In this document: piece after piece, positions 18,291-54,911 of the stretch | How positions within the stretch are numbered: position 1 is the stretch's first letter | Layout: every line of letters starts with the position of its first letter | IMG/VR virus record: IMGVR_UViG_3300027734_002590 | Location: 37,663-101,662 of that record | Length of the DNA: 64,000 bases | Reading direction: 5' to 3' (one strand) | Source: a virus | Made by a program: the position numbers and the translations under genes | Notes under the pieces: generated by a model | Told to the model about the DNA's origin: nothing | Seen by the model: the letters and a program-made list of their open reading frames with translations, nothing else | Database searches by the model: none

Positions 18291-18328
18291 CAAACGATTT
18301 GTCCAAAATAGGTAAACTTTAGTATTAA

Positions 18329-18405: not shown

Positions 18406-18490
18406 ATATATAGCGGTAACACCGCCATTTTGATTTCTTTGTTGCTAAGTGTGTATTATAGCAAGGTTTAGGGAAGTTGTCAACTTACCA

Positions 18491-19030: not shown

Positions 19031-19035
19031 GAATT

Positions 19036-19041
19036 TATTTA
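19036..19041 (-). promoter_or_regulatory. Late-type promoter, leaderless
   Basis: Minus strand GTAAATA, five bases, ATG at 19030. Confidence 0.65.
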
Positions 19042-19051
19042 CACTCATTAT

Positions 19052-19141
19052 TGGCGGAAGCGGTGAGATTCGAACTCACGGACCCTTTCGAGCCTTTAGT
19101 TTTCAAGACTAACGCATTAAGCCGGGCTCTGCCACGCTTCC
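19052..19141 (-). tRNA. tRNA-Ser (UGA)
   Basis: 90 bases, long variable arm, loop CTTGAAA, discriminator G, CCA encoded. Confidence 0.95.
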
Positions 19142-19146
19142 TAAAT

Positions 19147-19629: not shown

Positions 19630-19648
19630 GATACTCTCCTTAAAAATT

Positions 19649-19724
19649 TGGGGTGTCTTACGAGTATCGATCTCGTACTACCAGTTTCACAGACTAGGGT
19701 GCAGGCCACTACACTAAAGACACC
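19649..19724 (-). tRNA. tRNA-His (GUG)
   Basis: Loop CTGTGAA; the extra G at -1 opposite C73 characteristic of tRNA-His is present (GGTGTCTT/AAGACACC), CCA encoded. Confidence 0.94.
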
Positions 19725-19733
19725 ATTGTTGAA

Positions 19734-19872
19734 TTTGCTTACCGTTATTCAATGTCCAAGTCAAACACGGAGCCCGGCATGGAGCCAGGCCTGCTACGGG
19801 CTTCAGGTACATTAACAAGTGTCTTGGGCGACTCGCTAATCACATATGGGTAACCGTACACACGTAAGCAAA
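19734..19872. ncRNA. Structured spacer closed by a 9-bp stem
   Basis: TTTGCTTAC (19734-19742) pairs perfectly with GTAAGCAAA (19864-19872). Inside, GGAGCCCG (19769-19776) pairs with CGGGCTTC (19797-19804) using one G:U on the plus strand. No coding frame. Lies between the 57-aa gene and tRNA-His. Strand uncertain; may be a processing element or small RNA. Confidence 0.4.
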
Positions 19873-19875
19873 ACT

Positions 19876-20049
19876 TTAAAAAGGTCGCCACTCTACACGA
19901 CCGTGTTGGTCTATTTTGGCGACACTTTGTTGTCTCTTAATTTCTACAAAATCTTTTTTCACAGTAATCACTTCTCCGCCACGCTTGACAAGATCGGTGA
20001 TCATTTGCTTTGCCAAAATATTAATAGGCTCAAAACGTTTTAGTTCCAT
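19876..20049 (-). CDS. Small hypothetical protein, 57 aa
   Basis: ATG at 20049 with AAAGGAG in front; the frame extends further up but through tRNA sequence. Begins MELKRFEPINILAKQMITDL and ends in a basic beta part (GRVEWRPF). Helix followed by strands, possibly a small nucleic-acid-binding protein, but that is a guess. Embedded in the tRNA array. Confidence 0.6.
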   Translation of the reverse strand: MELKRFEPINILAKQMITDLVKRGGEVITVKKDFVEIKRQQSVAKIDQHGRVEWRPF

Positions 20050-20064
20050 GACATTCTCCTTTAA

Positions 20065-20139
20065 TGGTCCGGCCAGCAAGAATCGAACTCACATTCAAGA
20101 GGTAGAAGCTCTTTGTATTATCCATTATACTATGGCCGG
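20065..20139 (-). tRNA. tRNA-Arg (UCU)
   Basis: Acceptor CCGGCCA/TGGCCGG, loop CTTCTAC, discriminator A, CCA encoded. Confidence 0.92.
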
Positions 20140-20145
20140 ATTGTT

Positions 20146-20225
20146 TGGTACCCCAGGCGGGAGTTGAACCCGCATTAAATTTCTCCTTTTGAGAGAGACG
20201 ACTTTGCCAATTTGTCCACTGGGGC
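20146..20225 (-). tRNA. tRNA-Leu (CAA), short variable loop
   Basis: Loop CTCAAAA in a TCTCT/GGAGA stem; acceptor GCCCCAG/CTGGGGT, discriminator A. The variable loop is only about 8 bases, whereas bacterial leucine tRNAs normally have a long arm. Confidence 0.8.
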
Positions 20226-20227
20226 AT

Positions 20228-20305
20228 TGGCGCGACTTAAGAGATTCGAACTCCTGACCCCCTGCTTCGTAGGCAAGTGCTCTGATCCAGCTGAGCTAAA
20301 GTCGC
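20228..20305 (-). tRNA. tRNA-Arg (ACG)
   Basis: Loop CTACGAA, acceptor GCGACTT/AAGTCGC, D arm AGCTCAGCTGGATCAGAGC, CCA encoded. A34 would need host TadA to read CGC/CGA. Confidence 0.94.
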
Positions 20306-20311
20306 ATTGTA

Positions 20312-20387
20312 TGGTGGGTCGTGACAGTCTCGAACTGCCGACATTCTGCGTGTAAGGCAGACGCTCTACCAACTGAGCTAACGACCC
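20312..20387 (-). tRNA. tRNA-Val (UAC)
   Basis: Loop CTTACAC, acceptor GGGTCGT/ACGACCC, discriminator A, CCA encoded. Confidence 0.95.
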
Positions 20388-20437
20388 GAAAAGAAAAACT
20401 TCTAGCAGTATCTACGATACACCTAAAAGCCGTAATA

Positions 20438-20516
20438 TGGTCTCGGAAGTGGGATTCGAACTCACGATCTCCTGCTCCCAAAGCAGGCGCTTTAAACCGG
20501 ACTAAGCTACACCGAG
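20438..20516 (-). tRNA. tRNA-Pro (UGG)
   Basis: Loop TTTGGGA in a CCTGC/GCAGG stem, discriminator A, CCA encoded; acceptor begins CTCGG. Confidence 0.92.
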
Positions 20517-20545
20517 AAATATTTTTTGGTAAATCTAGATTATTT

Positions 20546-20551
20546 TAAATA
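20546..20551 (+). promoter_or_regulatory. Late-type promoter, leaderless
   Basis: TTTAAATACTAAAATG: TAAATA, five bases, ATG at 20557. The only plus-strand promoter of this type inside the tRNA array. Confidence 0.65.
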
Positions 20552-20556
20552 CTAAA

Positions 20557-21441
20557 ATGTATATAAAACTAATATATGATCTTGACCAATTTATAACAAT
20601 AAGATTATTCGATAATACTGCTGTAACCAAATGGTTTACAAAATTCTCTGAGATTGAGTATCGACAGCATTATATAAATTCAAACACGACTAAACTTTTT
20701 GTACGTTTAAAACATCCTAAACTTAAAGTTAACAACTGGAATATCATACTTTCTACAATTAAAGATCTAAAATCTTTAGGCTACGTGTTCCCTTTTGAAC
20801 TTCCAAATAAGTTTACCAACGATCAAGAATTATTGAATAATCTACACAGGTTTTTTACGTATAACATTATGTGGGATCAGTCTAATGAAGTTAATCCGTA
20901 CGATACACAATTTCAAACTGATTTAAGTTTTGAACAATGGCACGATTTGCTTGATAAAATTAATCATGCTGTACACTGGTTAGAAGTTATCACTACTAAT
21001 CCGAATAAAAAAATATTAAACAAACTGCCTATGAAGTTCTTACATATACTACCAAAGCAAGGATCTCCTAAAACAGTATTAGGATTTGATCAAAATGATC
21101 AACTTCAAAACTTTACCTACTTTGACTATGACCAAAAACCACTAGTACTTTTAAGTGGATCGATCACAGGCAAAAGTATACTTGAAAGTTTTTTGACTAA
21201 CGATAATCCCACACTAAAAGATTGCACTGGAAGAACTATATCACACGGAGGATTTGTAATAGATCTAAATAATTCAAGATCCAAAATATATCAAAGCACC
21301 GAGTTTAGATCTTGGTATAATAAATTTAGTTTAACATCTCCTCTACCTTTAGAATTTCCTATAGGTCATGTAATAAATCCGGAGAAACTATCTTTAGTCA
21401 AACTATTACGTTTAAGAAAAGTACTGTTTTTAAATATCTAA
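20557..21441 (+). CDS. Hypothetical protein, 294 aa, inserted in the tRNA array
   Basis: Plus-strand gene between tRNA-Pro and tRNA-Met, opposite to all surrounding tRNAs and more AT-rich than average. Sequence is rich in Asn, Lys and aromatic residues (FSEIEYRQHYINSNTTKLFV), with GRTISHGGFVIDLNN near the C-terminus. No signal peptide and no recognised catalytic motif. It has its own leaderless promoter. Could be an inserted cargo gene. Function unknown. Confidence 0.75.
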   Translation: MYIKLIYDLDQFITIRLFDNTAVTKWFTKFSEIEYRQHYINSNTTKLFVRLKHPKLKVNNWNIILSTIKDLKSLGYVFPFELPNKFTNDQELLNNLHRFFTYNIMWDQSNEVNPYDTQFQTDLSFEQWHDLLDKINHAVHWLEVITTNPNKKILNKLPMKFLHILPKQGSPKTVLGFDQNDQLQNFTYFDYDQKPLVLLSGSITGKSILESFLTNDNPTLKDCTGRTISHGGFVIDLNNSRSKIYQSTEFRSWYNKFSLTSPLPLEFPIGHVINPEKLSLVKLLRLRKVLFLNI

Positions 21442-21442
21442 T

Positions 21443-21516
21443 TGGTTGCGGGAGGCGGAATCGAACCACCATCTGAAGCTTATGAGACTTCTGAATTACC
21501 GTTACTCTATCCCGCT
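21443..21516 (-). tRNA. tRNA-Met (CAU), possible initiator type
   Basis: Loop CTCATAA. The 3' end CCCGCAACCA with A72 unpaired to A1 resembles initiator tRNA, where the 1:72 pair is broken. The three G:C pairs of initiator anticodon stems are absent (stem GAAGT/GCTTC), so the initiator call is uncertain. Confidence 0.85.
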
Positions 21517-21522
21517 ATTAAA

Positions 21523-21599
21523 TGGTGCCCCAGAGGAGACTCGAACTCCTAAAATTTGGCTTCTAAGACCAACACGTATACCAATTCCGTCACCGGGGC
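21523..21599 (-). tRNA. tRNA-Leu (UAG), short variable loop
   Basis: Loop CTTAGAA, D arm of leucine type, acceptor GCCCCGG, discriminator A, CCA encoded. Like the CAA leucine tRNA it lacks a long variable arm. Confidence 0.85.
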
Positions 21600-21610
21600 A
21601 TAAACTTACT

Positions 21611-21773
21611 ATTAAAAAATAACATTACCCCTTACAGGACGGAGCGGATTTCTGAGTGGAGTTCGATTTTCCTCATCAGCCATTGCCCACGGTTTTATCA
21701 GAGGAGTAAGATGGCCCTATTCCTCATGAGCCTATGCGTCCATAAGCGATACCCGTTAATGCTATTTTTTAAT
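21611..21773 (-). ncRNA. Structured spacer RNA closed by a 17-bp stem
   Basis: ATTAAAAAATAACATTA (21611-21627) pairs along its whole length with TAATGCTATTTTTTAAT (21757-21773). The single non-Watson-Crick position is A:C on the plus strand but G:U on the minus strand, so the minus strand is likely transcribed. It begins right after the CCA of tRNA-Glu and ends 11 bases before tRNA-Leu. The 129-base interior has further local pairing. No coding potential. Confidence 0.55.
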
Positions 21774-21848
21774 GGTACTCGGTAGGGGAATCGAACCCCT
21801 CTTCCCGCCGTGAAAGGGCGGTGTCCTAGACCGATAGACGAACCGAGC
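21773..21848 (-). tRNA. tRNA-Glu (UUC), first copy
   Basis: Loop CTTTCAC in a perfect CCGCC/GGCGG stem, T arm GGGG-TTCGATT-CCCC, CCA encoded. Confidence 0.94.
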
Positions 21849-21891
21849 AAAAACTTATTATACAATAAGAATTTAATTTTGTCAACTATTT

Positions 21892-21965
21892 TGGCACGGG
21901 AACTAGGGCTCGAACCTAGAATGACAGAGTCAAAGTCTGTAGTGTTACCATTACACTATTCCCGA
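21892..21965 (-). tRNA. tRNA-Gln (UUG)
   Basis: Loop CTTTGAC in ACAGA/TCTGT stem, T loop TTCGAGC, discriminator G, CCA encoded; weak 1:72 pair. Confidence 0.93.
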
Positions 21966-21975
21966 ACAGATTGAA

Positions 21976-22198
21976 TTTGTAAGCCTACGCCGCTTTTATC
22001 GTAGATTTATTCAGGACTTACCGGCCGCCTAGCCTGACCTCGAGCACGATGGATATCACTTGGGTACCTGTCCAGTTTAGTCGCCTCAATGGACCCCTGC
22101 AGTTCCCCGCAGGGTGGGTGTCGAACCCATCGCCTTCTACTGTTTCGGTCCTTCGAAGAAACCTAGACAGCGTGACTGTACTTGCTGACACTTACAAA
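21976..22198 (-). ncRNA. Structured spacer RNA with tRNA-like T arm
   Basis: TTTGTAAG (21976-21983) pairs with CTTACAAA (22191-22198). Inside are GTCCA/TGGAC (22070/22094), CCCTGC/GCAGGG (22095/22114) and CTACG/CGTAG (about 21986/22003). On the minus strand a T-arm-like GGGTTCGACACCC occurs around 22116-22128, but no acceptor, D or anticodon arm fits, so it is not a standard tRNA or tmRNA. Fills the gap between tRNA-Met and tRNA-Gln. Confidence 0.45.
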
Positions 22199-22201
22199 AC
22201 T

Positions 22202-22277
22202 TGGTAGTAACGGTCGGACTCGAACCGACGATAAACACCGTATGAAGGTGGTGCATTAGCCACTATGCTACGTTACC
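22202..22277 (-). tRNA. tRNA-Met (CAU), elongator type
   Basis: Loop TTCATAC in CACC/GGTG stem, acceptor GGTAACG/CGTTACT, T arm CGTCGG-TTCGAGT, CCA encoded. Confidence 0.92.
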
Positions 22278-22372
22278 ATATGTAAACACACTTCATGAGC
22301 ATGAGCTCACTTGTCTCCTTGCCCTAACTCTTGTGTTAAGGATCCGAAGGATAGAGTGTGTTTACATATGGT
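22275..22372 (-). ncRNA. Cruciform spacer RNA with an 18-bp perfect stem
   Basis: ACCATATGTAAACACACT (22275-22292) and AGTGTGTTTACATATGGT (22355-22372) are exact reverse complements. The stem overlaps the 5' GGT of tRNA-Met and the CCA of tRNA-Lys. On the minus strand the loop holds three small hairpins (ATCC-TTC-GGAT; CCTTAAC/GTTAGGG with a G:U; TGAGC-TCAT-GCTCA), a four-way junction. The G:U supports minus transcription. Confidence 0.6.
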
Positions 22373-22444
22373 AGGACCGCCCGGACTCGAACCGGGAATT
22401 GGCAGATTAAAAGTCTGCTGTGATAACCATTTCACTACGATCCC
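22369..22444 (-). tRNA. tRNA-Lys (UUU)
   Basis: Loop CTTTTAA in GCAGA/TCTGC stem, T arm CCCGG-TTCGAGT-CCGGG, CCA encoded. Confidence 0.95.
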
Positions 22445-22476
22445 ATATACAGTACTAAGTTGATTTAATGTGCCAA

Positions 22477-22502
22477 CCTTAGACCGTACATGGGATCTAA
22501 GG
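22477..22502 (-). other. Hairpin upstream of tRNA-Lys
   Basis: CCTTAG/CTAAGG (22477-22482 with 22497-22502), 14-base loop, in the 98-base gap between rpoZ and tRNA-Lys. Possibly a processing signal separating message from tRNA. A six-codon frame with a ribosome site also lies in the gap. Confidence 0.3.
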
Positions 22503-22542
22503 AGACACTAACGTTTACTACGTTTCATGTCATTCTCCTTTG

Positions 22543-22770
22543 TTAAACTACTTTCTTAAGATACTCTGTACCTACCTTACCTTCTTGAATTTCAAGCAAT
22601 GCAGTTACATTTGGATGCAAATGCTCAAACTTCAAACTTTCTTTGTTACGTCGACTAATCTCACGTGAACGAACCGCGGCCATCAATACTAAATCATATC
22701 GATTGCCACCTGCAAGCTCAACACATTTATCGGTGTCGATTTCCGAACTACGACTGATACCTTTTTTCAT
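22543..22770 (-). CDS. rpoZ: RNA polymerase omega subunit-like protein
   Basis: 75 aa. The core matches bacterial omega: AGGNRYDLVLMAAVRSREIS corresponds to the conserved N-R-F-D-L-V-L-x-A-x-x-R-A-R-Q block, followed by PNVTALLEIQEGKVG, which aligns with the A-L-R-E-I-E-E-G segment. The C-terminal tail present in E. coli omega is missing. Omega clamps the beta-prime subunit and aids assembly. Located inside the tRNA array between tRNA-Phe and tRNA-Lys, with AAAGGTAATAT before ATG. A phage copy could mark or retune host polymerase. Confidence 0.82.
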   Translation of the reverse strand: MKKGISRSSEIDTDKCVELAGGNRYDLVLMAAVRSREISRRNKESLKFEHLHPNVTALLEIQEGKVGTEYLKKVV

Positions 22771-22789
22771 ATATTACCTTTTTAAAACT

Positions 22790-22865
22790 TGGTGCTACCT
22801 CCAGGGATCGAACCTGGTTCCTCGGTTCTTCAGACCGGTGCTATGACCACATCAGCTAAAGTAGC
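22790..22865 (-). tRNA. tRNA-Phe (GAA)
   Basis: Loop CTGAAGA, T arm CCAGG-TTCGATC-CCTGG, discriminator A, CCA encoded. Confidence 0.95.
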
Positions 22866-22866
22866 A

Positions 22867-22942
22867 TGGCGTACCCTCAGGGCCTCGAACCCCGAACCTC
22901 TGGTTTTGGAGACCAGCACTCTGCCAATTGAGCTAAGGATAC
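22867..22942 (-). tRNA. tRNA-Trp (CCA)
   Basis: Loop CTCCAAA in CTGGT/ACCAG stem, discriminator G, CCA encoded; one base from tRNA-Phe. Confidence 0.95.
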
Positions 22943-22948
22943 ATAATT

Positions 22949-23038
22949 TGGTCCCCCAGTGTGGAATCGAACCACATCCTGGACCTTATCTAGATTAATC
23001 GCTTATAAAACGACCTGCTCTCCTTGAGCTACTGGGGG
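22949..23038 (-). tRNA. tRNA-Ile (UAU), long variable region
   Basis: Acceptor CCCCCAG/CTGGGGG, D stem GCTC/GAGC, loop TTTATAA, T arm TGTGG-TTCGATT-CCACA. The variable region is about 21 bases, abnormal for isoleucine. Confidence 0.75.
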
Positions 23039-23044
23039 AGCGTT

Positions 23045-23119
23045 TGGTATAGCGTACGGGGATCGAACCCGCCTAGTCACCTTGAAAGGGTGATGACCTC
23101 CCCAGAAGTCGAACGCTAT
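23045..23119 (-). tRNA. tRNA-Glu (UUC), second copy
   Basis: Loop CTTTCAA in TCACC/GGTGA stem, acceptor ATAGCGT/ACGCTAT, T arm GCGGG-TTCGATC-CCCGT, CCA encoded. Sequence differs strongly from the first copy. Confidence 0.88.
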
Positions 23120-23125
23120 ATAATT

Positions 23126-23199
23126 TGGAGCGGGATAGGAGAATCGAACTCCTGACTAAACCTTGGCAAGGTTTCGTTTGACCATTAAACTAATCCCGC
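23126..23199 (-). tRNA. tRNA-Gly (GCC)
   Basis: Same acceptor as tRNA-Gly(UCC) at 16527, loop TTGCCAA, discriminator T, CCA encoded; the two probably derive from one another. Confidence 0.95.
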
Positions 23200-23204
23200 A
23201 TACT

Positions 23205-23279
23205 TGGTGGAGGATGGGAGGATCGAACTCCCACTTCATGCTTGCAAAGCACATGTGCTCCCATTATCACTAATCCCCC
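23205..23279 (-). tRNA. tRNA-Ala (UGC)
   Basis: Loop TTTGCAA; the G3:U70 pair that marks alanine tRNA is present (GGGGGAT/ATCCTCC), discriminator A, CCA encoded. Confidence 0.95.
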
Positions 23280-23286
23280 AATAAAC

Positions 23287-23363
23287 TGGCTCCCCGTCGT
23301 GGGCTCGAACCACGGACATCGACATTAACAGTGTCGCGCAACTACCAACTGTGCTAACGGGGA
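23287..23363 (-). tRNA. tRNA-Asn (GUU)
   Basis: Loop CTGTTAA in CGACA/TGTCG stem, acceptor TCCCCGT/ACGGGGA, discriminator G, CCA encoded. Confidence 0.95.
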
Positions 23364-23370
23364 ATAAACT

Positions 23371-23445
23371 TGGTGCCCCAGGAAGGAATCGAACCTCCAC
23401 ACCCTGATTACAAAACAGGACCTCTACCACTAAGGATACAAGGGC
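23371..23445 (-). tRNA. tRNA-Thr (UGU), second copy
   Basis: Loop TTTGTAA in CCTGT/TCAGG, acceptor GCCCTTG/CTGGGGC with one mismatch, CCA encoded. Same anticodon as 11620 but different sequence. Confidence 0.88.
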
Positions 23446-23453
23446 GTAAAACT

Positions 23454-23528
23454 TGGTAGCCTATCTTGGGAACGATCCAAGGACCCCCGCCTTATCAAGA
23501 CGGTGCTCTACCACTGAGCTAATAGGCT
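23454..23528 (-). tRNA. tRNA-Ile (GAU)
   Basis: Loop TTGATAA in CCGTC/GGCGG, acceptor AGCCTAT/ATAGGCT, CCA encoded. The T loop reads ATCGTTC, a departure from the nearly universal TTCGANN. Confidence 0.9.
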
Positions 23529-23533
23529 ATATA

Positions 23534-23621
23534 TGGCGGAGGATATAGGAATCGAACCTATCCACCCATTACTGAATGACAGTTTAGCAAACTGTTGCCT
23601 TAACCGCTCGGCCAATCCTCC
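23534..23621 (-). tRNA. tRNA-Ser (GCU)
   Basis: 88 bases with long variable arm, loop TTGCTAA, discriminator G, CCA encoded. Confidence 0.95.
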
Positions 23622-23627
23622 ATAACT

Positions 23628-23702
23628 TGGCGATCCTGCGGGGAATCGAACCCCGATATCCGACTAGACAGGCCGGTATAATAACCACTATATGACAGGA
23701 CC
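23628..23702 (-). tRNA. tRNA-Asp (GUC)
   Basis: Loop CTGTCTA in CCGGC/GTCGG stem, T arm CGGGG-TTCGATT-CCCCG, discriminator G, CCA encoded. Confidence 0.93.
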
Positions 23703-23707
23703 AAATT

Positions 23708-23796
23708 TGGTGGAGATGATAGGATTCGAACCTATTGCGTTTCTTAAGTACCGGATTTACAGTCCGGGGCCACTCCACCATCGTAGCCGCATCTCC
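23708..23796 (-). tRNA. tRNA-Tyr (GUA)
   Basis: 89 bases with long variable arm as usual for bacterial Tyr, loop CTGTAAA, acceptor GGAGATG/CATCTCC, CCA encoded. First tRNA of the main array in transcription order. Confidence 0.95.
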
Positions 23797-35815: not shown

Positions 35816-37177
35816 TTAATATCCTTGTCTTATTGTGATAGGGGCACACCCGCCTGCTGTGGCACATGATGTAGTAACACTTACATTTTGTCCACCGTTT
35901 TGTTGTAGAATAACACTTGCTGGCCCTCCAGCATTTGTTAAGTCTAACGTAGCTCGGTTAGCTAACGAGCCTTCCTGTACAGCACTAATGCTATTGCTAT
36001 TGCCAGTTAATTTGTTTTCTAAGTAATGTTGACCTGTACCTTTTTGTATGGCTTCGACAGTATTGTTGTTGCCTGCAATACTATTAAACATTATTTTATT
36101 ACCGTTATCTGTCTGTCGGGCTGTAACACTATTTTGATTACCATTTATAGTGGTTTCTATGTAGTGTCCACCAACTCCGCCTGTGTTGCTTTGCTGTGTA
36201 GTTAATGTATTATTAGATCCGTTGATATCTACATTTTGATAGTGTCCGTTCCCGCCTGAAGCAGAGCCCTGTGTTGTCCGTGCTTGGTTAATATTAAGTG
36301 TATTACTATCCCCAACTACATTAAAATTAACTTCATTTTGACCTATTCCGCTTACACCTTGATTTAACGTAATGCTGTTAGAGCTACCTTGTATTGTAGC
36401 GTACTGAGTTCCGTTACCACCAATAAGGTTTTTACCTCCGGTCTGATTTATGGTCACAGTATTGTTATTACCACTAACTTGATCAATGTAAATTTTATTG
36501 CCATCTGCAACTGTTTTATTTGCCCAAGCAGTTACTTTATTTTGTTGAGAGGTAGTTATTGTAGTTGTTTCGGTAAATGTCATAGTACCGGCTGTACCGC
36601 CACCGATAGTAACATAAGTCGGATATTGAGGAGGCGGTGGCGTTGCAGGTTGTGCTGTTTGGCCTGCGGCTAATGGAGTTGTGCTTCCGTTGGTTGCGTA
36701 TGCGTTGACTTGTGCCACTGTTGGGTTCAATGTGCCAGTCCACGATACACCGTTGGTGTTAGAAAACCCCTGAGTCATACTAAACAACTGTCCAGTGTCG
36801 TTATCATTTCCAACGAAGAAGAAATAGTCTGCACCCATATTGATAATATGTCCAGTACCCATAACTGCCTTTTGTGTTCCGTTAGCAGTATATTGAATTG
36901 CGTTCCACGGATTAGTAGAATCCCCAGTTGCTACAAATTTAACATAGTCTCCAGCACCCCAGGTTAGCTGTCCGTTATACCAAGGAATCATATATGCGGT
37001 TCCAGGATTTTTACTATAGATTTGGCAAGTTGCTGTTTGTGTACACGCCTGCACATTCCATTGGCTATCTGCTATTTGTGCTTGTCCAAACTTTAAATCA
37101 GCCAAGCCAGATGCTTGACTGTATGCAGTAATGCATAACATACACAGTATGAAGAAAAGCAGGATAGAACGTTTCAT
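35816..37177 (-). CDS. Large curlin-repeat protein with N-terminal extra domain
   Basis: 453 aa with signal peptide (cleavage near AYSQA). Residues 25-200 form a non-repeated domain; residues 230-440 carry about eight curlin-type repeats with the pattern G-x-N-N-x-V-x-I-x-Q (e.g. VSGNNNTVTINQTG, VGDSNTLNINQ, IAGNNNTVEAIQKG). Curlin repeats stack into beta-solenoid amyloid. Larger than CsgA/CsgB (about 150 aa); the extra domain may cap, anchor or bind. It overlaps the FecR gene's stop by one base and would be exported through CsgG. Confidence 0.85.
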   Translation of the reverse strand: MKRSILLFFILCMLCITAYSQASGLADLKFGQAQIADSQWNVQACTQTATCQIYSKNPGTAYMIPWYNGQLTWGAGDYVKFVATGDSTNPWNAIQYTANGTQKAVMGTGHIINMGADYFFFVGNDNDTGQLFSMTQGFSNTNGVSWTGTLNPTVAQVNAYATNGSTTPLAAGQTAQPATPPPPQYPTYVTIGGGTAGTMTFTETTTITTSQQNKVTAWANKTVADGNKIYIDQVSGNNNTVTINQTGGKNLIGGNGTQYATIQGSSNSITLNQGVSGIGQNEVNFNVVGDSNTLNINQARTTQGSASGGNGHYQNVDINGSNNTLTTQQSNTGGVGGHYIETTINGNQNSVTARQTDNGNKIMFNSIAGNNNTVEAIQKGTGQHYLENKLTGNSNSISAVQEGSLANRATLDLTNAGGPASVILQQNGGQNVSVTTSCATAGGCAPITIRQGY

Positions 37178-38286
37178 TATTTTTGTGTTAATGATATTAT
37201 GGTATTGTTACCTTGATTAACACGGTTCTTAAATTCAATATTATTTTGTGTCATATATAATGTTGAATTTTGAGTTTGAGGTGTTGTTATACACATACGA
37301 TCAGCACCGTTATCACGACATAGTGTAACTGTCGGATCGTCCTTGGTAACAATGATGCCACTGGCTTTTTTATAGTCAGGCAACATACTGTCAACTTCTT
37401 CTAGCAATTTTTCATTAAGGGCATTACCAACCATGTCAAACATATTGGCTAGAAAATTATTATCTAAAAAATTACGACTAAGTTTGTCTTGGAAGAATTG
37501 ACGAGCACTATCATCTAGCGCATTAGTAAGTCCTTGCTCTTTTAGGAAATCAACATCCAACGGACCACGCATATCTCTACGTTGGTCTTTGTTATTGTCT
37601 TTTTTCATTTCATCAGGAGTTGATATTAATAAACTTTCAATAGCATTTTCGCTAAGGTTTAATGTTACAGGTTTACTAGGAGGAGAGCTACGACTGTTTA
37701 CTTTAGTTGCTTGAAATGGTTGATTTAGGATAACCATTCCAGCATCTGTTTCTACGCTGATCTCTCCTGTATGACAACTTGACTCAATGTCTTTAATTGA
37801 TCGTGTAGTTCTATTTGTGGGACAGCTGGGCAACAATATAACTGTTGACTGTCCGAGTTCGTCTACTGAGGCTGTGAAGTCTGTGCCACGTACAGAGATA
37901 GTTGCTGTTGGGGTATTAAGTGCTACGTTCTGTGGGCTGTTCTTGGCAATCTGTCCACTAGCATAACGAACAGTACCTAATGCCATCTTAGCACTTAGTT
38001 TACCGCTTTTACTTTTTGGATCGTAGACAAAATCGTCAATTACAAGTTTACTATTTTCGTTAACTTGAACTTTTGTATCATCTTGGAAAGTTATTCCTAA
38101 TTTTCCCGACTGCGTTCTGATCGAGTCGTTCATCTCCACTCCTGTGCCCTTGGCGCCCGTTAGTGTTTGTTTGTCCCGCTGGATGCTGGCCGGTGTGTTG
38201 ACCTGCTCGGTTACTGTTCCGACTGCGGCGCGACTCAACGAGGTACTTAGCAACAGCGAGCATAGTACGACTATCCATGTTTTCAT
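37177..38286 (-). CDS. FecR-domain exported protein with C-terminal curlin-like repeat
   Basis: 369 aa with signal peptide (ends LSRAAVGT). FecR-type beta region about 50-170: KLGITFQDDTKVQVNENSKL, GKLSAKMALGTVRYASGQIA, NTPTATISVRGTDFTASVDE. A helical middle follows, and the C-terminal ~30 residues (FKNRVNQGNNTIISLTQK) look like one curlin repeat. FecR domains relay signals or bind murein/surface polymers. The repeat end suggests co-assembly with the fibre. Same operon as the curlin genes. Confidence 0.8.
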   Translation of the reverse strand: MKTWIVVLCSLLLSTSLSRAAVGTVTEQVNTPASIQRDKQTLTGAKGTGVEMNDSIRTQSGKLGITFQDDTKVQVNENSKLVIDDFVYDPKSKSGKLSAKMALGTVRYASGQIAKNSPQNVALNTPTATISVRGTDFTASVDELGQSTVILLPSCPTNRTTRSIKDIESSCHTGEISVETDAGMVILNQPFQATKVNSRSSPPSKPVTLNLSENAIESLLISTPDEMKKDNNKDQRRDMRGPLDVDFLKEQGLTNALDDSARQFFQDKLSRNFLDNNFLANMFDMVGNALNEKLLEEVDSMLPDYKKASGIIVTKDDPTVTLCRDNGADRMCITTPQTQNSTLYMTQNNIEFKNRVNQGNNTIISLTQK

Positions 38287-42998: not shown

Positions 42999-43004
42999 TA
43001 TTTA
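42999..43004 (-). promoter_or_regulatory. Late-type promoter
   Basis: Minus strand GTTAAATATTAGATT then ATG at 42991: seven-base gap. Confidence 0.55.
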
Positions 43005-43697
43005 ACCAATTTCCGGGAATAGAACTTCCTGCACAAAACGCTTAATTTTACCCTCTTCTATACCCATAGCAACCATACTGCGAACTACTTGGGGGTTCTG
43101 CTTTTGATAATGGCAATAGCGATTCTGTGCTTGATGGAAGTCAAAACCGCTATGTTGTGCTATACCTACGTTCTTTATGTAAAAATCTAGAGTTGTTTTG
43201 GCAAGATCACATAGTTGCTGTATTTCTAGTTCGCTACGTAAATTGCCGGCCGCTACCATTGCAGGGCTGAATATTTGTCGAGCCCATTCTGGTAGCTCTC
43301 GTGGTTTATTCCACTCCAAATCATTAACCTGGGCTTTAAACCACAAGTACATAGGACTCAATGGATCTCCGCTAATACTATAGTCGTGGAATGCTCCTGT
43401 TATTTTATTGCGGCCGCAGACAGCGTCAAACCCGAATATAGGACTAGAGTCATTAGTGTGCGGAAACACAGTGGTGTGCAGGATATACATCCCGTGACTT
43501 TCACGTTTGTCTACAATTTCAACGTGTGCTCTACGGTATCGTGAGCTAGACCAAAGAGAATTGTGCCATTCATAATCGCTAACATCCTGGCTGATCAACT
43601 CACCTGTGTTGTTAAACACGTTAGTAAAGTGTTCAGATAGTTCTTCTATCTGCGTCCAAGCTTCAATCGATGTTAGGGAGTCTGTCATTGAATTCAT
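43002..43697 (-). CDS. Ferredoxin-dependent bilin reductase (PcyA/PebS/PcyX family)
   Basis: 231 aa. Core W-x-x-S-x-R-Y-R-R-A-H-V-E; the PcyA catalytic trio aligns with E60 (RAHVEIVDK), H74 (YILHTTVFP) and D91 (PIFGFDAV), and the H-to-D spacing of 17 equals that of PcyA. Reduces biliverdin to a phyco-bilin using ferredoxin. It overlaps the heme oxygenase gene by 35 bases, giving a heme-to-bilin cassette. The phage PcyX type is known to make phycoerythrobilin; which product is made here cannot be told. A second in-frame ATG is at 43688. Confidence 0.85.
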   Translation of the reverse strand: MNSMTDSLTSIEAWTQIEELSEHFTNVFNNTGELISQDVSDYEWHNSLWSSSRYRRAHVEIVDKRESHGMYILHTTVFPHTNDSSPIFGFDAVCGRNKITGAFHDYSISGDPLSPMYLWFKAQVNDLEWNKPRELPEWARQIFSPAMVAAGNLRSELEIQQLCDLAKTTLDFYIKNVGIAQHSGFDFHQAQNRYCHYQKQNPQVVRSMVAMGIEEGKIKRFVQEVLFPEIG

Positions 43698-44202
43698 TCA
43701 TTATTCTAATTGCCCAGTTGAACGATTTTAATGCTTCTTCGCCCAAGCTGTCATCTAATTTTGCACGGATCTTTTCTTTAAGTCCGTCACCATCTTTAAA
43801 TTCTAAATTGCGATGGGGTGGAGGCAAAATTTTCTTAATCATTTGACCACCAAATAAGTCGCCCATATGCCAAGTGTATAAGTGAGCCAGTACTTGTCCT
43901 TTTGGGAGATCTAAAATGTAACGATGGTATTCAATTGCGCCGGGAGTAAACTTGCCGTCAAATCTATTTTCGCAAAGATCTTTGTAGTCTTGGTATAGTT
44001 TGTATGCACGATCGATATCTGGTAGATCGTCTAGTAGCCCTTCGGAGCGGGCTTTAGTTTCGATAGCACCATACCATAACATTTTGTTGTAGGTAAAGTC
44101 TTTCCATACATCAACTGGCATCTGCTTTTTAAAAACAGAACGCATGAATTTAGTATCCTCTGCGGCCTGATGTACTTCTTTGGTAATTTCTTTTAAGCTC
44201 AT
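43663..44202 (-). CDS. Heme oxygenase
   Basis: 179 aa, alpha-helical. The proximal His is likely in KEVHQAAEDTKFMRSVF (H11), and the distal-helix glycine motif is seen as YTWHMGDLFGGQMIKKIL. Cleaves heme to biliverdin, CO and iron with a ferredoxin-type donor. Size suits the bacterial/cyanobacterial HO family (usually 200-240 aa, here slightly short). A TATAAATA box at 44221 and AGGAG ribosome site precede it; it heads the bilin cassette. Confidence 0.88.
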   Translation of the reverse strand: MSLKEITKEVHQAAEDTKFMRSVFKKQMPVDVWKDFTYNKMLWYGAIETKARSEGLLDDLPDIDRAYKLYQDYKDLCENRFDGKFTPGAIEYHRYILDLPKGQVLAHLYTWHMGDLFGGQMIKKILPPPHRNLEFKDGDGLKEKIRAKLDDSLGEEALKSFNWAIRIMNEFNDRLPNID

Positions 44203-44236: not shown

Positions 44237-44539
44237 TTACTCTGGTTCGACTTTAATGACTAAAGGGAATCCGTGTTCACGGGATAGTTCTGTTGCTTCT
44301 ACGGTCTTCTGCTCGGCAATTTCATAGCTGTAAATTCCTGCTACGGCCGCACCTTCATGGTGTATTTTCATAGTCAACGCTTCGGCAGAACTGTGATTGT
44401 GTTTGAACACACGAATCAACATAGCTATAACAAAATCCATAGGAGTTCTGTCATCATTAAGAACGATGCATTTATATTTGCTTGGACGTACTACTTCAAG
44501 ATCTTGTTTAGTAGTTTCTTTAGTTAGAGTTTCTGCCAT
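44237..44539 (-). CDS. clpS: ClpS, N-degron adaptor for Clp protease
   Basis: 100 aa. Family motifs: YKCIVLNDDRTPMDFVIAML (N-end pocket), LTMKIHHEGAAVAGIYSYEI and AEQKTVEATELSREHGFPL. Pocket residues equivalent to the Asp pair and His of E. coli ClpS are present. ClpS normally works with ClpA, not ClpX; neither ClpA nor ClpP is in the window, so it should act on the host protease. It could redirect N-end-rule degradation during infection. Confidence 0.93.
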   Translation of the reverse strand: MAETLTKETTKQDLEVVRPSKYKCIVLNDDRTPMDFVIAMLIRVFKHNHSSAEALTMKIHHEGAAVAGIYSYEIAEQKTVEATELSREHGFPLVIKVEPE

Positions 44540-44592: not shown

Positions 44593-45075
44593 TTATGCGG
44601 CCTTTGACAGCCTCGGTTTTTGTGTAGTTTCGAAAGTATTAGCAATTTCAATCTTACGTGGCTTCAGTGATTCTGGAAGTACACGCTCGAGTTTAATTGT
44701 TAAGATACCATCGTTGATTTCGGCTCCACGTACTTCAACATACTGTTCAAGAGTCCACGCACGATAGAAATCACGTGCGGCAAGACCGCGGTAGTGATAT
44801 ACCTGTCCTTCTGGTGGTTCTTTTTCAGCTTTCTTACCTTCTACAGTAAGTTGATGTTGATCGATAGTGATCTCAATCTCGTCCTTTTTAAAACCTGCTA
44901 CAGCGACTTCAATTTGATATTCGCTTTCACTAGTTTGAAGGATGTTGAATGGGGGATAGTTGTTGCCTGCGGAATTGGCCAATCTGCCGTCTAAACTGTC
45001 GAACAGTTGATCAAATCCAATGAGTGCTCTGTTGATATTCGCTAGAGCGTTTGTGTCGATACGATATGCTTTCAT
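44593..45075 (-). CDS. Small heat-shock protein Hsp20 (IbpA-like)
   Basis: 160 aa. Alpha-crystallin domain about 38-130: YPPFNILQTSESEYQIEVAV, AGFKKDEIEITIDQHQLTVE, VYHYRGLAARDFYRAWTLEQ, DGILTIKLERVLPESLKPRK. An I-x-I-like LPESLKPRKIEI follows. Holdase for unfolded proteins. T4-like phages commonly carry one. Its 20-base leader before ATG is identical to that of dnaK, and a sigma70 promoter lies upstream. Confidence 0.93.
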   Translation of the reverse strand: MKAYRIDTNALANINRALIGFDQLFDSLDGRLANSAGNNYPPFNILQTSESEYQIEVAVAGFKKDEIEITIDQHQLTVEGKKAEKEPPEGQVYHYRGLAARDFYRAWTLEQYVEVRGAEINDGILTIKLERVLPESLKPRKIEIANTFETTQKPRLSKAA

Positions 45076-46283: not shown

Positions 46284-46994
46284 TTAGAATGCTTTGCTTA
46301 CAGAAACAACAAATGTGTCTTTGTATAACTTTTGACCGTTTACGGTATTTGTAGCGTTGAATGAGCTACCTTGATTGCTGTTTGTGTAATACTTACCAGC
46401 AATATCCCAACCTTGTAAATTGTAAACAGCACCGACGTTCCAGTCAGTGTAGTTTAAGCCACTGTTGTTGTTAACATCAGTACGGCCGGCGTGAGCAACG
46501 GCGCTCAATTTACCAACGATTGGCTGAACTAAATCAACTTGATAGTATTGTGAGTTTTTACTGTTAGTAGTACCGAAGTAGTTGCTCAAAGAATTACTTG
46601 CTTTGAATGTAACTGGACCTTTGCCAACTGCAACATAAAGTTCGTTAGTGTCAAAGTTAGTACTAGTACCATTAGTAGCACGTGGATAAAAGTAGTTCAT
46701 TGAACCAACGTCTAAATCAAATCCCAAGAACTTGCTTTTGTAGCCAGCATATAGATCTGATTCAACGCCAGCACCATTACCGTAGAGTTCTGAACTTACG
46801 GAACTGTTCCAGTTACCGACGTATAAACCGCTTGAGTGAGCGTAGTCGATTCCACCTTGTACTGCTGGTGCGTTTTGAGTTTGGCTAACCCCACGGAATC
46901 TGTAGTCAGAGGTAAGAGACATATTGCCTGATACTTGAGCTTGTGCTGTGGCAAATCCTACTGCCAACATAAATGCTAAAAATAGCTTTTTCAT
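46284..46994 (-). CDS. TorF-family putative porin
   Basis: 236 aa with signal peptide (ends ATAQAQ). Mature start VSGNMSLTSDYRFRGVSQTQ is the family hallmark (TIGR02001/TorF): S-D-Y-R-F-R-G. Alternating beta strands and a C-terminal Phe (VVSVSKAF) as in outer-membrane barrels. Known from proteobacteria as diffusion pores. A phage copy may alter uptake or receptor display. Own sigma70 promoter and terminator, so it is independently expressed. Confidence 0.85.
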   Translation of the reverse strand: MKKLFLAFMLAVGFATAQAQVSGNMSLTSDYRFRGVSQTQNAPAVQGGIDYAHSSGLYVGNWNSSVSSELYGNGAGVESDLYAGYKSKFLGFDLDVGSMNYFYPRATNGTSTNFDTNELYVAVGKGPVTFKASNSLSNYFGTTNSKNSQYYQVDLVQPIVGKLSAVAHAGRTDVNNNSGLNYTDWNVGAVYNLQGWDIAGKYYTNSNQGSSFNATNTVNGQKLYKDTFVVSVSKAF

Positions 46995-47106: not shown

Positions 47107-48147
47107 TTAGATTAAGAATGTTATTGTGCCTGCTGTAGCAAGTAATAACGCTCCCCATCCGCCCAATGCTTTGTAATATGTGCTGATAGGTGTGCCGAAA
47201 TAACGGTTACCAATCATAACACACTTATGCGTAGGGCTAATGAGATAGCCAGCAAAGTCTAATGCAAAGAACCATAAGAAGTACTCTTGTCCAAAGACTT
47301 GAGACATAATTACAGCGATTGCAATAAACTTGCCGCTACTTCCCATTAGGAAGCTGGCAATAAAGCCGATAGCCGAAATAGCTACCATGCCAACGAAAGT
47401 ATGCGGATCAAGCACACTTGCCTTTAACATAGTTTGCCATGCGGCATCATAAGTTTTCATGTAGTTGCCTAAGGCGATAACTGCACCAACCCATGCTAAT
47501 ACATCCCAGCGAACATAGCCCAATAATTTCTTAATGTTCCATTGTTGGCTGATGATGATATAGTATAGGGTTAGGAAACCAAAACATCCAATCATCCATT
47601 TGCTTTCGTAGATGTACAAGCCAATGGCTACGAACATCGGTAAAACATTGCGAAGGACTGACGATAGTTTAAAGTTTCCTGGTGTAATTGTAATTTCTTC
47701 ATCATGCACTTGTGACCAAATGTACCAAGCGATGAATACAAAACTAACAACCAACAGTGGTGCGATTAGGCCAAGCCATGCACCATAAGTTAGACCAAAT
47801 GCCGCGATGGGTAGGATTACTGTTTTCTCGAGTGGCGACCACAAATAATAGTGGTGCGTACTCAAATAATCAACAATGCCTAACTTCTCACGGCCTGGTC
47901 CGTCTTTTGGTGCAACTGTGTCAAGCAGACCTGCTGACACAGTGACTCGACCTTCAATTGGCAGAACTCCACCAATTGCGCTTAAGAGTACTACAACGAA
48001 CCTGTTGCTACGGAATGTGTTTCTTACATAGGCAAATGCTGGGGCAAATAGAGCGTACTCTTTTGCTAATCCAGCAGTGATCATAATGAAGAATATCATC
48101 CATAGATACGATATGTCCTTTAACAGGACGTTTGTGATGAAGTCCAT
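47107..48147 (-). CDS. DUF401-like polytopic membrane transporter
   Basis: 346 aa with about ten hydrophobic segments. Two related half-motifs: SAIGGVLPIEGRVTVSAGLL and SFLMGSSGKFIAIAVIMSQV, each with small residues in a broken helix, as in DUF401/ion-transporter superfamily proteins. Probably imports or exports an organic acid; substrate unknown. AAGGAG ribosome site; ends at its own terminator. Transporter genes of this size are rare in phages. Confidence 0.7.
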   Translation of the reverse strand: MDFITNVLLKDISYLWMIFFIMITAGLAKEYALFAPAFAYVRNTFRSNRFVVVLLSAIGGVLPIEGRVTVSAGLLDTVAPKDGPGREKLGIVDYLSTHHYYLWSPLEKTVILPIAAFGLTYGAWLGLIAPLLVVSFVFIAWYIWSQVHDEEITITPGNFKLSSVLRNVLPMFVAIGLYIYESKWMIGCFGFLTLYYIIISQQWNIKKLLGYVRWDVLAWVGAVIALGNYMKTYDAAWQTMLKASVLDPHTFVGMVAISAIGFIASFLMGSSGKFIAIAVIMSQVFGQEYFLWFFALDFAGYLISPTHKCVMIGNRYFGTPISTYYKALGGWGALLLATAGTITFLI

Positions 48148-51122: not shown

Positions 51123-51151
51123 ATTATACACTCAAATGGTAAACCTGTCAA
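51123..51151 (-). promoter_or_regulatory. Sigma70 promoter of the 51-48 kb operon
   Basis: TTGACA, 17 bases, TATAAT on the minus strand, back to back with the late-type promoter of the ALAS gene. Confidence 0.8.
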
Positions 51152-51175: not shown

Positions 51176-52390
51176 ATGATTAAGCCAAAAACACAAGATG
51201 CAATCGCCAAAAGTTTAGAAAAACTCAAAACTGAAGGCAATTACAGAGTATTTACAGACATCCTGCGACAGCGGGGAGACTTTCCAAAAGCTATTTGGTA
51301 CGGAAAATACAACATCAAACATATTACAAATTGGTGTTCAAATGATTACTTAGGTATGGGTCAACATAAAGTAGTAGTTGATGCCATGCATACCGCATTA
51401 GATACTGCCGGTGCCGGCGCCGGTGGCACTCGCAACATTAGCGGTACAACTCACTATCACGTTGCACTTGAACACGAACTTGCCAAGTTACACGACAAGA
51501 CCAGTGCGCTTACGTTTACGTCAGGTTACGTTGCTAATCAGGCTACTCTTAGTGTTTTAGGTCGTATGATACCAAATGTACATTACATTAGCGACAAGCA
51601 TAATCATAACTCAATGATTGTTGGCATCAAGAGCACTAAAGTAGATCGTACTGTTTGGCGACACAATGATTTAGATCACCTACGTGAAATACTACAAGGA
51701 TTGCCGGTTGACTGTCAGCCTATTATTGCCTTAGAAGGAGTCTACTCCATGGACGGTGATCGAGGATTAGTCAGCGATGTATGTGAAATTGCTCGTATGC
51801 ATGGTGCTATGGTTTATGTTGACGAAGTACATGCTGTTGGCCTGTACGGAGCTCGTGGTGCAGGAGTTGCTGAAGAACAATTCTGCGTAGATGGTGTTGA
51901 TATCATACAAGGTACACTGGCCAAAGCGTTTGGCGTACAAGGTGGATACATTGCTGGAAGCCGAGACTTAGTTGATATGGTTCGCAGTTACGCAGACGGC
52001 TTTATCTTTTCAACTAGTATGAGTCCTGTGCTGTGTGCAGGCGCTTTAGCGTCAGTTAAGTACGTTCAAGATCATCCCGAGCTTCGAAATAGAATATTTG
52101 AAGTAGCGCATAATACAAGAGAGCACCTACGTGCTACAGGATTAGAAATCAACCCATTATCAGAGAACGGACATATTGTCCCTGTTATGGTACGTGATGC
52201 TAAGAAAACTAAGGCAATCTCAGATTGGCTATTAGAAGAAAAAGCATTGTACGTACAACCTATCAACTACCCGACTGTTCCGTGGGGTAGTGAAAGATTG
52301 CGCTTTACACCAACGCCCAATCACACTGAGGCAGATATTGATTATCTTGCCCGAAGCCTAAAGGAGGCATTTGATGTTTACAAAAATTAA
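51176..52390 (+). CDS. hemA: 5-aminolevulinate synthase (ALAS)
   Basis: 404 aa PLP enzyme of the alpha-oxoamine synthase family, of alphaproteobacterial ALAS type: TEGNYRVFTDILRQRGDFPK, NWCSNDYLGMGQH, GAGAGGTRNISGTTHYHVAL, VYVDEVHAVGLYGARGAG, PLP-lysine in GTLAKAFGVQGGYIAG and YVQPINYPTVPWGSERLRFT. Condenses glycine and succinyl-CoA to 5-aminolevulinate, the first step of heme synthesis (Shemin route). With the heme oxygenase and bilin reductase it gives the start and end of a heme-to-bilin path. Complete; leaderless late promoter. Confidence 0.95.
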   Translation: MIKPKTQDAIAKSLEKLKTEGNYRVFTDILRQRGDFPKAIWYGKYNIKHITNWCSNDYLGMGQHKVVVDAMHTALDTAGAGAGGTRNISGTTHYHVALEHELAKLHDKTSALTFTSGYVANQATLSVLGRMIPNVHYISDKHNHNSMIVGIKSTKVDRTVWRHNDLDHLREILQGLPVDCQPIIALEGVYSMDGDRGLVSDVCEIARMHGAMVYVDEVHAVGLYGARGAGVAEEQFCVDGVDIIQGTLAKAFGVQGGYIAGSRDLVDMVRSYADGFIFSTSMSPVLCAGALASVKYVQDHPELRNRIFEVAHNTREHLRATGLEINPLSENGHIVPVMVRDAKKTKAISDWLLEEKALYVQPINYPTVPWGSERLRFTPTPNHTEADIDYLARSLKEAFDVYKN

Positions 52391-52796
52391 AAAGTATTTG
52401 TGGTTTACGGCAGGTATACTATTCTTAGGAGTAGCATACATCGGAGTTATCGTTCCGGGCATTCCTTGGTCAACGCCTAGTTTAATTGCGGCATATTGTT
52501 TTGCTCGTAGTTCGAAACGATTCCATGACTATATGCTTAATCATAAACTATTTGGTCCGTTTATTAAGAACTGGGCCGATGGCCGTGTTTATCCTAGCAA
52601 AGTAAAATGGATCATGTTCTTGTGTATGGATGCTAGTTTAATAATTATGTGGTTTGCTACACAGAACTGGAAAGCAGTTGCAGGTATGAGCGTGTTCTTT
52701 GCCCTAGTATTAATTTGGGCAAGCCGTTATCCTAGCACAAAAGAAGAAAGCGACCGTAGAAAGGCCGCTGGCGAAAAAATTGGGTGGTTAAAATGA
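52374..52796 (+). CDS. DUF454 (YbaN-like) inner-membrane protein
   Basis: 140 aa with about four hydrophobic segments; family pattern GVIVPGIPWSTPSLIAAYCF ARSSKRFHDYMLNHKLFGP visible. The ATG at 52374 lies inside the end of the ALAS gene with AAGGAGGC upstream, so the two are coupled. DUF454 genes occur near heme-related genes in bacteria, supporting a heme link; function not established. Confidence 0.82.
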   Translation: MFTKIKKYLWFTAGILFLGVAYIGVIVPGIPWSTPSLIAAYCFARSSKRFHDYMLNHKLFGPFIKNWADGRVYPSKVKWIMFLCMDASLIIMWFATQNWKAVAGMSVFFALVLIWASRYPSTKEESDRRKAAGEKIGWLK

Positions 52797-52885
52797 TTTT
52801 AGATATTATTCTTTATGGCTTTATCGCAGGCATTGCTTACGGCGTTTACAAATTTGTAAAGTTAGCCGTAAGCGATTGTGACTAA
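52793..52885 (+). CDS. Very small membrane protein, 30 aa
   Basis: MILDIILYGFIAGIAYGVYK then FVKLAVSDCD: one membrane helix. ATGA overlap with the DUF454 stop suggests translational coupling. It converges on the exonuclease gene (4-base overlap). Tentative but well placed. Confidence 0.5.
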   Translation: MILDIILYGFIAGIAYGVYKFVKLAVSDCD

Positions 52886-53461: not shown

Positions 53462-53710
53462 TTAATAGAGTTTTGGCGGTAATTGTTGATCACGTAAATG
53501 TTTTAACCAGCGAGCTCTTGCGGCTCCTTTTTTACGTTTTCTTACGGTGGTGGGTTTTTCGTAGCTTTGACGTTTTAGCACATCCATTAATAGATTGCTG
53601 TCATCTACTTTCTTTTTAAATTTTCTAAGTGAGGAGTTAAAATTATCCCCTACTTCTACCCGTAATCCTTTTACAGGTCTATTTGGCTGTCTCTGCATTC
53701 TTTTCTTCAA
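53462..53710 (-). CDS. rpsU: Ribosomal protein bS21
   Basis: 82 aa. GLRVEVGDNFNSSLRKFKKK, then LLMDVLKRQSYEKPTTVRKR and RWLKHLRDQQLPPKLY: a basic bS21 with the central helix and R-K-K tail. bS21 contacts the anti-Shine-Dalgarno region of 16S rRNA and helps initiation; phage copies are known from large phages and may bias ribosomes to phage mRNAs. It overlaps the clpX end by 32 bases, so expression is coupled. Confidence 0.9.
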   Translation of the reverse strand: MKKRMQRQPNRPVKGLRVEVGDNFNSSLRKFKKKVDDSNLLMDVLKRQSYEKPTTVRKRKKGAARARWLKHLRDQQLPPKLY

Positions 53711-54911
53711 AAATCATTTTAGGTGTTCCACCTAAAACTGTATTTTTACTTATCCTAATCCCAGTTAAACCGCGCTCGACTAAATCCATACTTTGGAATT
53801 GATAGGGAACTAGCAGTTTTTCTAATGCAGTTTTAAGTCCCCGTGCATTGGTTTTAAGATCTTTGGCTTGTTTAGCAATGGATTCGATCGCATTATCTTC
53901 AAATGTTAATTTAACACCGTCTAGTTCAAAGATATATTGATATTGTTTAATTAAACTATTTTTTGGTTCTTTAAGAATTTGTATTAGATCAGTAATATCT
54001 AATTCATTTACGTGTGTAAGAATACCAAATCTTCCAACAAACTCGGGTATCAGGCCGAATGTAATAAGATCCTTAGTAGTTACATCTTTGTAAAAGACTG
54101 CTGTCTCGTTGGTACTGGAAATTTTCGAGTTAAATCCAATCGAATTGGCATTAACACGACGGTCAATAATTTTATCCAATCCCACAAATGCACCACCACA
54201 GATAAACAATATTTCACTAGTATCAATCTCGGTCATATCGCTCTTTGGGTTCTTGCGCTTGTCTCCCGGCACCCGCATAATTGTGCCTTCGATCATCTTT
54301 AGCAAGCCCTGTTGAACTCCTTCTCCCGATACGTCTCGGGTAATTGACATATTCTCGCCTTTACGAGCAATTTTATCAATTTCATCAATATAGACAATAC
54401 CACGTTGCGCTTTCTTAATGTCACCATCTGCGACAGCAATTAATCGAGTAAGAATACTTTCAACGTCATCTCCAACATATCCTGCTTCAGTTAGACCAGT
54501 AGCATCTGCAATAGCAAACGGCAAGTCTAGAAATTCTGCAATCTTCTTGGCCATCATAGTTTTGCCGCAACCAGTTGGACCTAACATAAGCACATTAGAT
54601 TTTTCTAATTTAATATTATCGTTTGGATTATTAATACGTTTATAATGTTGACAAACTGCAACACTTAATGCAATCTTAGCATCGTCTTGTCCAATAACAT
54701 ATTGATCCAAATAATCCTTAATTCTTACAGGATTGAAATGACTAATTTTTTCTTCACCATCAGGGAACGCTTTTATTTTTTCGTCAATAAGGATTCGTTG
54801 ACAAAGATCTACACACTCGTTGCAAATTCCTACATCGTTTCCGACAATAAGTTTTTCAACGTCTTCTTTAGGTTTGCCGCAGAAATTACAGCTATGTTTC
54901 TCTTTACTCAT
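53679..54911 (-). CDS. clpX: ClpX, AAA+ unfoldase
   Basis: 410 aa, near full bacterial length. Zinc-binding domain with two Cys pairs (CNFCGKPKEDVEKL, ICNECVDLC), Walker A MLGPTGCGKTMMAKKIAEFL, Walker B IVYIDEIDKIARKGE, pore loop GYVGDD and sensor VSGEGVQQGLLKMIE. The I-G-F loop that docks ClpP is retained as NSIGFNSK. No ClpP in the window, so it likely uses the host protease or acts alone as a remodelling motor. Upstream of bS21. Confidence 0.96.
   Translation of the reverse strand: MSKEKHSCNFCGKPKEDVEKLIVGNDVGICNECVDLCQRILIDEKIKAFPDGEEKISHFNPVRIKDYLDQYVIGQDDAKIALSVAVCQHYKRINNPNDNIKLEKSNVLMLGPTGCGKTMMAKKIAEFLDLPFAIADATGLTEAGYVGDDVESILTRLIAVADGDIKKAQRGIVYIDEIDKIARKGENMSITRDVSGEGVQQGLLKMIEGTIMRVPGDKRKNPKSDMTEIDTSEILFICGGAFVGLDKIIDRRVNANSIGFNSKISSTNETAVFYKDVTTKDLITFGLIPEFVGRFGILTHVNELDITDLIQILKEPKNSLIKQYQYIFELDGVKLTFEDNAIESIAKQAKDLKTNARGLKTALEKLLVPYQFQSMDLVERGLTGIRISKNTVLGGTPKMIFEEKNAETAK

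Follow-up and report, generated by a model that had tools for sequence, protein, structure and literature searches.

Gene content of the locus

The window analyzed here, a 64,000-nucleotide stretch of DNA, comprises bases 37663–101662 of a 101,662-base IMG/VR virus record and comes from a large aquatic phage; its gene context is that of a phage (rIIA, clamp loader and tail fibre genes). It harbors a gene for 5-aminolevulinate synthase (ALAS) followed by a gene of the DUF454 family, both oriented against the surrounding genes, as well as genes for a heme oxygenase (HO), a ferredoxin-dependent bilin reductase (FDBR) and the adaptor ClpS (Table 1).

Table 1. Positions of the genes and sequence signals discussed in the text, numbered from the first base of the window.
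Feature	Position	Strand	Evidence and remarks
5-aminolevulinate synthase (viral AlaS)	51176-52390	+	404 aa; PLP lysine K250; TIGR01821, PDB matches, residues, tree
DUF454 (YbaN-like) small inner-membrane protein	52374-52796	+	PF04304; 140 aa from ATG 52374
Shine-Dalgarno AGGAGG for DUF454	52362-52367	+	inside ALAS coding region, 6 nt before ATG 52374
Putative sigma-70 promoter, TTGACA-17-TATAAT	51123-51151	-	12/12 consensus, 17-nt spacer
Heme oxygenase HemO	43663-44202	-	179 aa; PF01126, 59.9 bits; proximal His11, GDxxGG motif
FDBR, PcyA type by triad	43002-43697	-	PF05996, 68.3 bits; overlaps hemO
ClpS adaptor	44237-44539	-	PF02617, 96.9 bits; directly upstream of hemO
ClpX	53679-54911	-	full-length, 531.7 bits
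Hsp20	44593-45075
DnaK/HSP70	7532-9460		849 bits
TorF-family putative porin	46284-46994	-	171 bits
DUF401/TIGR00529 membrane protein	47107-48147	-
FecR-domain protein	37177-38286	-
Protein with weak curlin-repeat match	35816-37177	-
30 tRNA genes	9571-23796		most amino acids covered

The DUF454 frame as listed runs from 52371 to 52796 (+), with TTG 52371 as an alternative start and ATG 52374 as the likely one. This ATG lies inside the 3' end of the ALAS gene, whose stop codon occupies 52388–52390, and the overlap together with the AGGAGG internal to ALAS suggests that the two genes are translationally coupled. The preliminary description, which had called the ALAS "coupled to DUF454", was right in this respect, and the linkage reaches further than it knew. 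The region ending at 52885 also contains a 30-codon ORF (52793–52885), for which a conserved counterpart was looked for and none found. In the gap before ALAS, the promoter match points leftward, away from ALAS and into a leftward gene array; we regard it as a putative sigma-70 promoter, a consensus match being no proof of function.

Identity and ancestry of the viral ALAS

Judged from its sequence, the gene is a complete 5-aminolevulinate synthase, as the preliminary description had it: the ORF is full-length and free of internal stops, and all checked catalytic and succinyl-CoA residues are intact. It scored 538.5 bits (E 9e-162) against NCBIfam TIGR01821, passing the curated equivalog cut-off of 338.55, and the closest solved structures were the bacterial ALAS 7x98 and 2bwn (E about 1e-123). 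Residues R24, N56, T85, N87, H144 and K250, equivalent to Arg21, Asn54, Thr83, Asn85, His142 and Lys248 of the Rhodobacter capsulatus enzyme, were invariant in 84/84 phage and 80/80 bacterial ALAS. The other alpha-oxoamine synthases that could be mistaken for ALAS, namely BioF, Kbl and serine palmitoyltransferase, share its fold family, and the BioF and Kbl models match the ORF too. However, their scores (308.9 and 301 bits) fall below their own cut-offs (426 and 460), as does that of the serine palmitoyltransferase model, and the curated cut-off was passed by the ALAS model only. The window enzyme has Thr85 and Asn87, which are specific to ALAS and missing in all three Kbl/BioF-type outgroup sequences, from which a branch with 99% SH-aLRT separates ALAS in the tree. 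A BioF or Kbl position in the phylogeny had been named beforehand as the refuting outcome; the ALAS identity survived that check, and scores, residues and tree together rule out the other enzymes, whose likelihood we consider negligible.

The window enzyme shares all checked catalytic and succinyl-CoA-binding residues with R. capsulatus ALAS (PDB 2bwn, full-length match, E 2e-123) and differs from it in two respects: the heme-regulatory His342 is Lys344 in the window ALAS, and the C-terminal Cys is absent. It has been suggested that losing the heme-regulatory His is useful to the phage (PMC11480375). Since 72/80 sampled bacterial ALAS lack this His as well, its loss is not a phage trait, and loss of heme feedback as a phage-specific adaptation is not supported.

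A scan of viral contigs for ALAS yielded 486 relatives, of which 80 were kept; about 20 of these were of the window type (72–97% identity), the remainder sharing 56–61%. In a tree of 61 phage rows, 40 bacterial ALAS and three outgroup rows, all 61 phage ALAS fell on one side of a single branch (99% SH-aLRT). The phage clade has a long stem and is nested inside alphaproteobacterial ALAS, to which phage sequences are only 50–56% identical; the window clade stands apart from other phage ALAS. Bacterial sampling was uneven because the rows were taken from the 80 sequences scoring highest with the phage profile. Of the alphaproteobacterial source or host put forward in the preliminary description, the source, broadly taken, therefore finds support in this nesting. 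The host does not: the phage clade is old, and published phages with viral alaS (valaS) had hosts assigned to both alpha- and gammaproteobacteria (PMC11480375), so that an alphaproteobacterial host is not inferable. Some ALAS-bearing virus records are gp23-bearing T4-type phages of 147–280 kb. Among INPHARED cultured phages no ALAS relatives were found; matches reached at most 36% identity, were Kbl or BioF where annotated, and in several cases were bacterial records. No near relative of the window phage was present in the phage record collection.

Viral ALAS has been known since 2024. In marine and freshwater phages, valaS occurs alone, in hemO-pcyA/X-valaS cassettes or in broken cassettes; the CB_2 vAlaS complements a 5-ALA auxotroph, and the CB_2 PcyA produces phycocyanobilin (Wegner et al. 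2024, PMC11480375). The novelty implied earlier for a phage ALAS is thus gone, with the enzyme both published and demonstrated to be active, and because phage-encoded ALAS is already known the present locus adds only one more lineage. A contiguous hemO-pcyA/X-valaS cassette is absent from the window, where ALAS lies 7 kb from hemO on the opposite strand, the "broken cassette" form. As in the CB_2 broken cassette (PMC11480375), a Shemin-type phage ALAS is accompanied by hemO and pcyA elsewhere in the record, the PLP lysine is at position 250, and the FDBR residues are those of PcyA, not PcyX. Both ALAS fit a phage clade of its own, which stands at about 55% to the alphaproteobacterial enzymes, a comparison with the published viral AlaS that was made without the CB_2 sequence itself. 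What sets the window ALAS apart is its apparent translational coupling to DUF454, a word absent from the main text of PMC11480375 (supplements aside). We found no report of a link between DUF454 and viral ALAS; the coupling is real and apparently unreported.

Heme oxygenase, bilin reductase and ClpS

Both the heme oxygenase and the bilin reductase proposed in the preliminary description proved real by their family matches, and they lie 7.0 kb from ALAS. Its phrase that the phage owns both ends of a heme-to-bilin route agrees with the gene layout, with the steps from 5-ALA to heme necessarily being those of the host. The proximal His and the G-D-x-x-G-G motif of HO were invariant across 33 phage HO. 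The best PDB match of the FDBR was PcyX (5owg), and its overall sequence is closer to PcyX. Its Glu60/His74/Asp91 align with the PcyA triad Glu76/His88/Asp105 (roles described in PMC9800206). PcyX lacks Glu76 (PMC10151467) and has Asp55 (roles from PMC9800206 and PMC10151467). Because the Glu/His/Asp triad is present and Glu76 is absent in PcyX, a PcyA-type product, phycocyanobilin, is predicted for the window FDBR. Across 33 phage FDBR, the triad His and Asp were invariant, and the position of PcyA Glu76 was occupied by E (19), S (8), D (3), N (2) or H (1).

Bradyrhizobium sp. ORS278 carries a hemO-pcyA-alaS island (as cited in PMC11480375). It shares all three genes with the window phage and differs in being bacterial and in having an adjoining bacteriophytochrome. 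A search for a bacterial FDBR (PF05996) donor in 398 other Pseudomonadota genomes found none. Two FDBR genes each were observed in three virus records, and another viral locus (L001, 1668–3010) holds a tandem pair of FDBR genes beside HO.

Linkage of DUF454 with heme genes

The DUF454 ORF matched PF04304 with 98.9 bits (gathering cut-off 35.1) over profile positions 1–114 of 115. Like YbaN/DUF454 proteins, it has the full-length domain, a conserved PxxP motif, a His and an FG motif, and its AlphaFold model is all-helical (pLDDT 84.5); a PDB fold search with this model returned no match at E ≤ 0.001. Its His58 and Cys43 are conserved residues. The phage members differ in forming a clade of their own (100% SH-aLRT). 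DUF454 matches in INPHARED were rejected as phage relatives, as they look like bacterial contigs.

DUF454 was detected in 36/49 ALAS-bearing virus records (35 above the cut-off), more often than HO and FDBR, which were found in the same 20 of the 49. Among 26 T4-type control records chosen by the gp23 capsid protein, neither DUF454 nor ALAS was present (0/26 each; Fisher p 8e-11 for DUF454), although kinship among the virus records means that these counts are not independent. None of 80 bacterial ALAS loci had DUF454 within 6 kb. At the locus level, DUF454 lay near ALAS in 44/80 viral ALAS loci: immediately downstream with an overlap or a gap of up to 50 bp (22), downstream within 1 kb (4), directly upstream (2) or on the opposite strand (16). 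The other 36 loci had no nearby DUF454, and in 26 of them a flank ends before 5 kb. One locus (L057, 9558–11573) displays a DUF454-ALAS-DUF454 sandwich in which each DUF454 ORF overlaps the ALAS ORF by ~10 bp. In the reverse test, comprising 80 viral DUF454 loci, 35 had ALAS within 8 kb and a further 18 had HO or FDBR but no ALAS. The remaining 27, many of them fragments, had neither, which counts against a heme link, as does the lack of DUF454 in 13/49 ALAS virus records.

Nine relatives of the window lineage have DUF454 in the same slot with ALAS absent. They retain FDBR-HO-ClpS-HSP20 on one side and an exoRNase on the other, with ClpX where the locus extends far enough. DUF454 is thus kept with HO-FDBR in ALAS-less relatives and is therefore part of the heme gene set, in which ALAS is optional. 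In one viral locus, DUF454 lies 39 bp from HO.

Among 150 Pseudomonadota genomes, DUF454 was present in 57 and HO in 18. Bacterial DUF454 is mostly not beside heme oxygenase, which again counts against a heme link. DUF454 followed HO within 200 bp for 5/20 HO matches, although a genome has only one to three DUF454; in five genomes the two genes shared a strand with under 200 bp between them, and in one more they were 2.4 kb apart. Four bacterial neighboring stretches contain what look like TonB-receptor fragments (as judged by reading the ORFs). In the literature, E. coli ybaN belongs to the Fur regulon (PMC7157518), iron starvation raises DUF454 (PMC7970244), and the neighborhoods of T11SS genes have DUF454 and heme oxygenase among their most strongly enriched domains (PMC12282271).

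Proposed role and alternatives

We consider it probable that the two genes constitute an auxiliary metabolic unit in which AlaS would supply tetrapyrrole and DUF454 would most likely be its membrane-side partner. During infection, viral AlaS would make 5-ALA and keep the tetrapyrrole supply running, probably outside host control and without use of glutamyl-tRNA. Host enzymes would convert 5-ALA to heme, which phage HemO would open to biliverdin and the reductase, PcyA-type by its residues, would turn into phycocyanobilin; HemO and PcyA would thereby break down part of the heme made. The gene content, the intact residues, the overlap with its ribosome site and the recurrent genetic link are observed here, and for DUF454 we infer a molecular task: translated with AlaS, it may act at the inner membrane on heme, a porphyrin intermediate, iron or a product of heme breakdown. 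More specifically, and only tentatively, we hypothesize that DUF454/YbaN is a heme-pathway inner-membrane carrier, chaperone or exporter (of heme, porphyrin or bilin) serving whichever gene adjoins it, ALAS in phages and HO in bacterial heme-uptake loci. If this heme reading is true, the phages would show what a widespread domain of unknown function does. DUF454 is tied to ALAS in phages, to HO in phages as well as bacteria and, by published work, to iron starvation, and this yields a YbaN hypothesis that is concrete, cheap and testable in laboratory E. coli.

ALAS and DUF454 might instead occur together through a single block acquisition or a common cargo slot, with DUF454 performing a general, non-heme task. 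The phage members of each family form one clade, and the distances among ALAS are correlated with those among DUF454 (Spearman 0.39, Mantel p 0.001), as joint acquisition would give; the 27 viral DUF454 loci without ALAS or HO nearby also fit. However, the two genes occur in several arrangements, including opposite strands and the sandwich, DUF454 stays with HO-FDBR after ALAS is gone, it independently adjoins HO in bacteria, and it is iron-regulated (PMC7157518, PMC7970244). On balance, we regard a shared history with a non-heme task as unlikely. Still less credible is a switch of 5-ALA synthesis from a host C5 to a phage Shemin route, in which phage ClpS would help host ClpAP to remove glutamyl-tRNA reductase while AlaS supplied 5-ALA and tRNA-Glu was spared. 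In Salmonella, glutamyl-tRNA reductase is known as a substrate of Clp, and in plants it interacts with ClpS1 (review PMC7966870); a tRNA-sparing idea already appears in PMC11480375, and in 30/32 phage HO loci no more than 100 bp separate ClpS from HO. Yet this proximity also holds where ALAS is absent: relatives without ALAS keep ClpS, which is tied to HO rather than to ALAS. ClpS moreover has many other substrates. We thus consider such a switch very improbable and retain the metabolic unit of AlaS and DUF454 as our preferred reading.

Other genes in the window

ClpS, ClpX, Hsp20 and DnaK/HSP70 together make up a proteostasis set that is unusually full for a phage, and the window also carries a large array of tRNA genes (Table 1). 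Between the heme genes and ALAS lie the TorF-family putative porin and the DUF401/TIGR00529 membrane protein, and a FecR-domain protein is encoded next to the protein with the weak curlin-repeat match.
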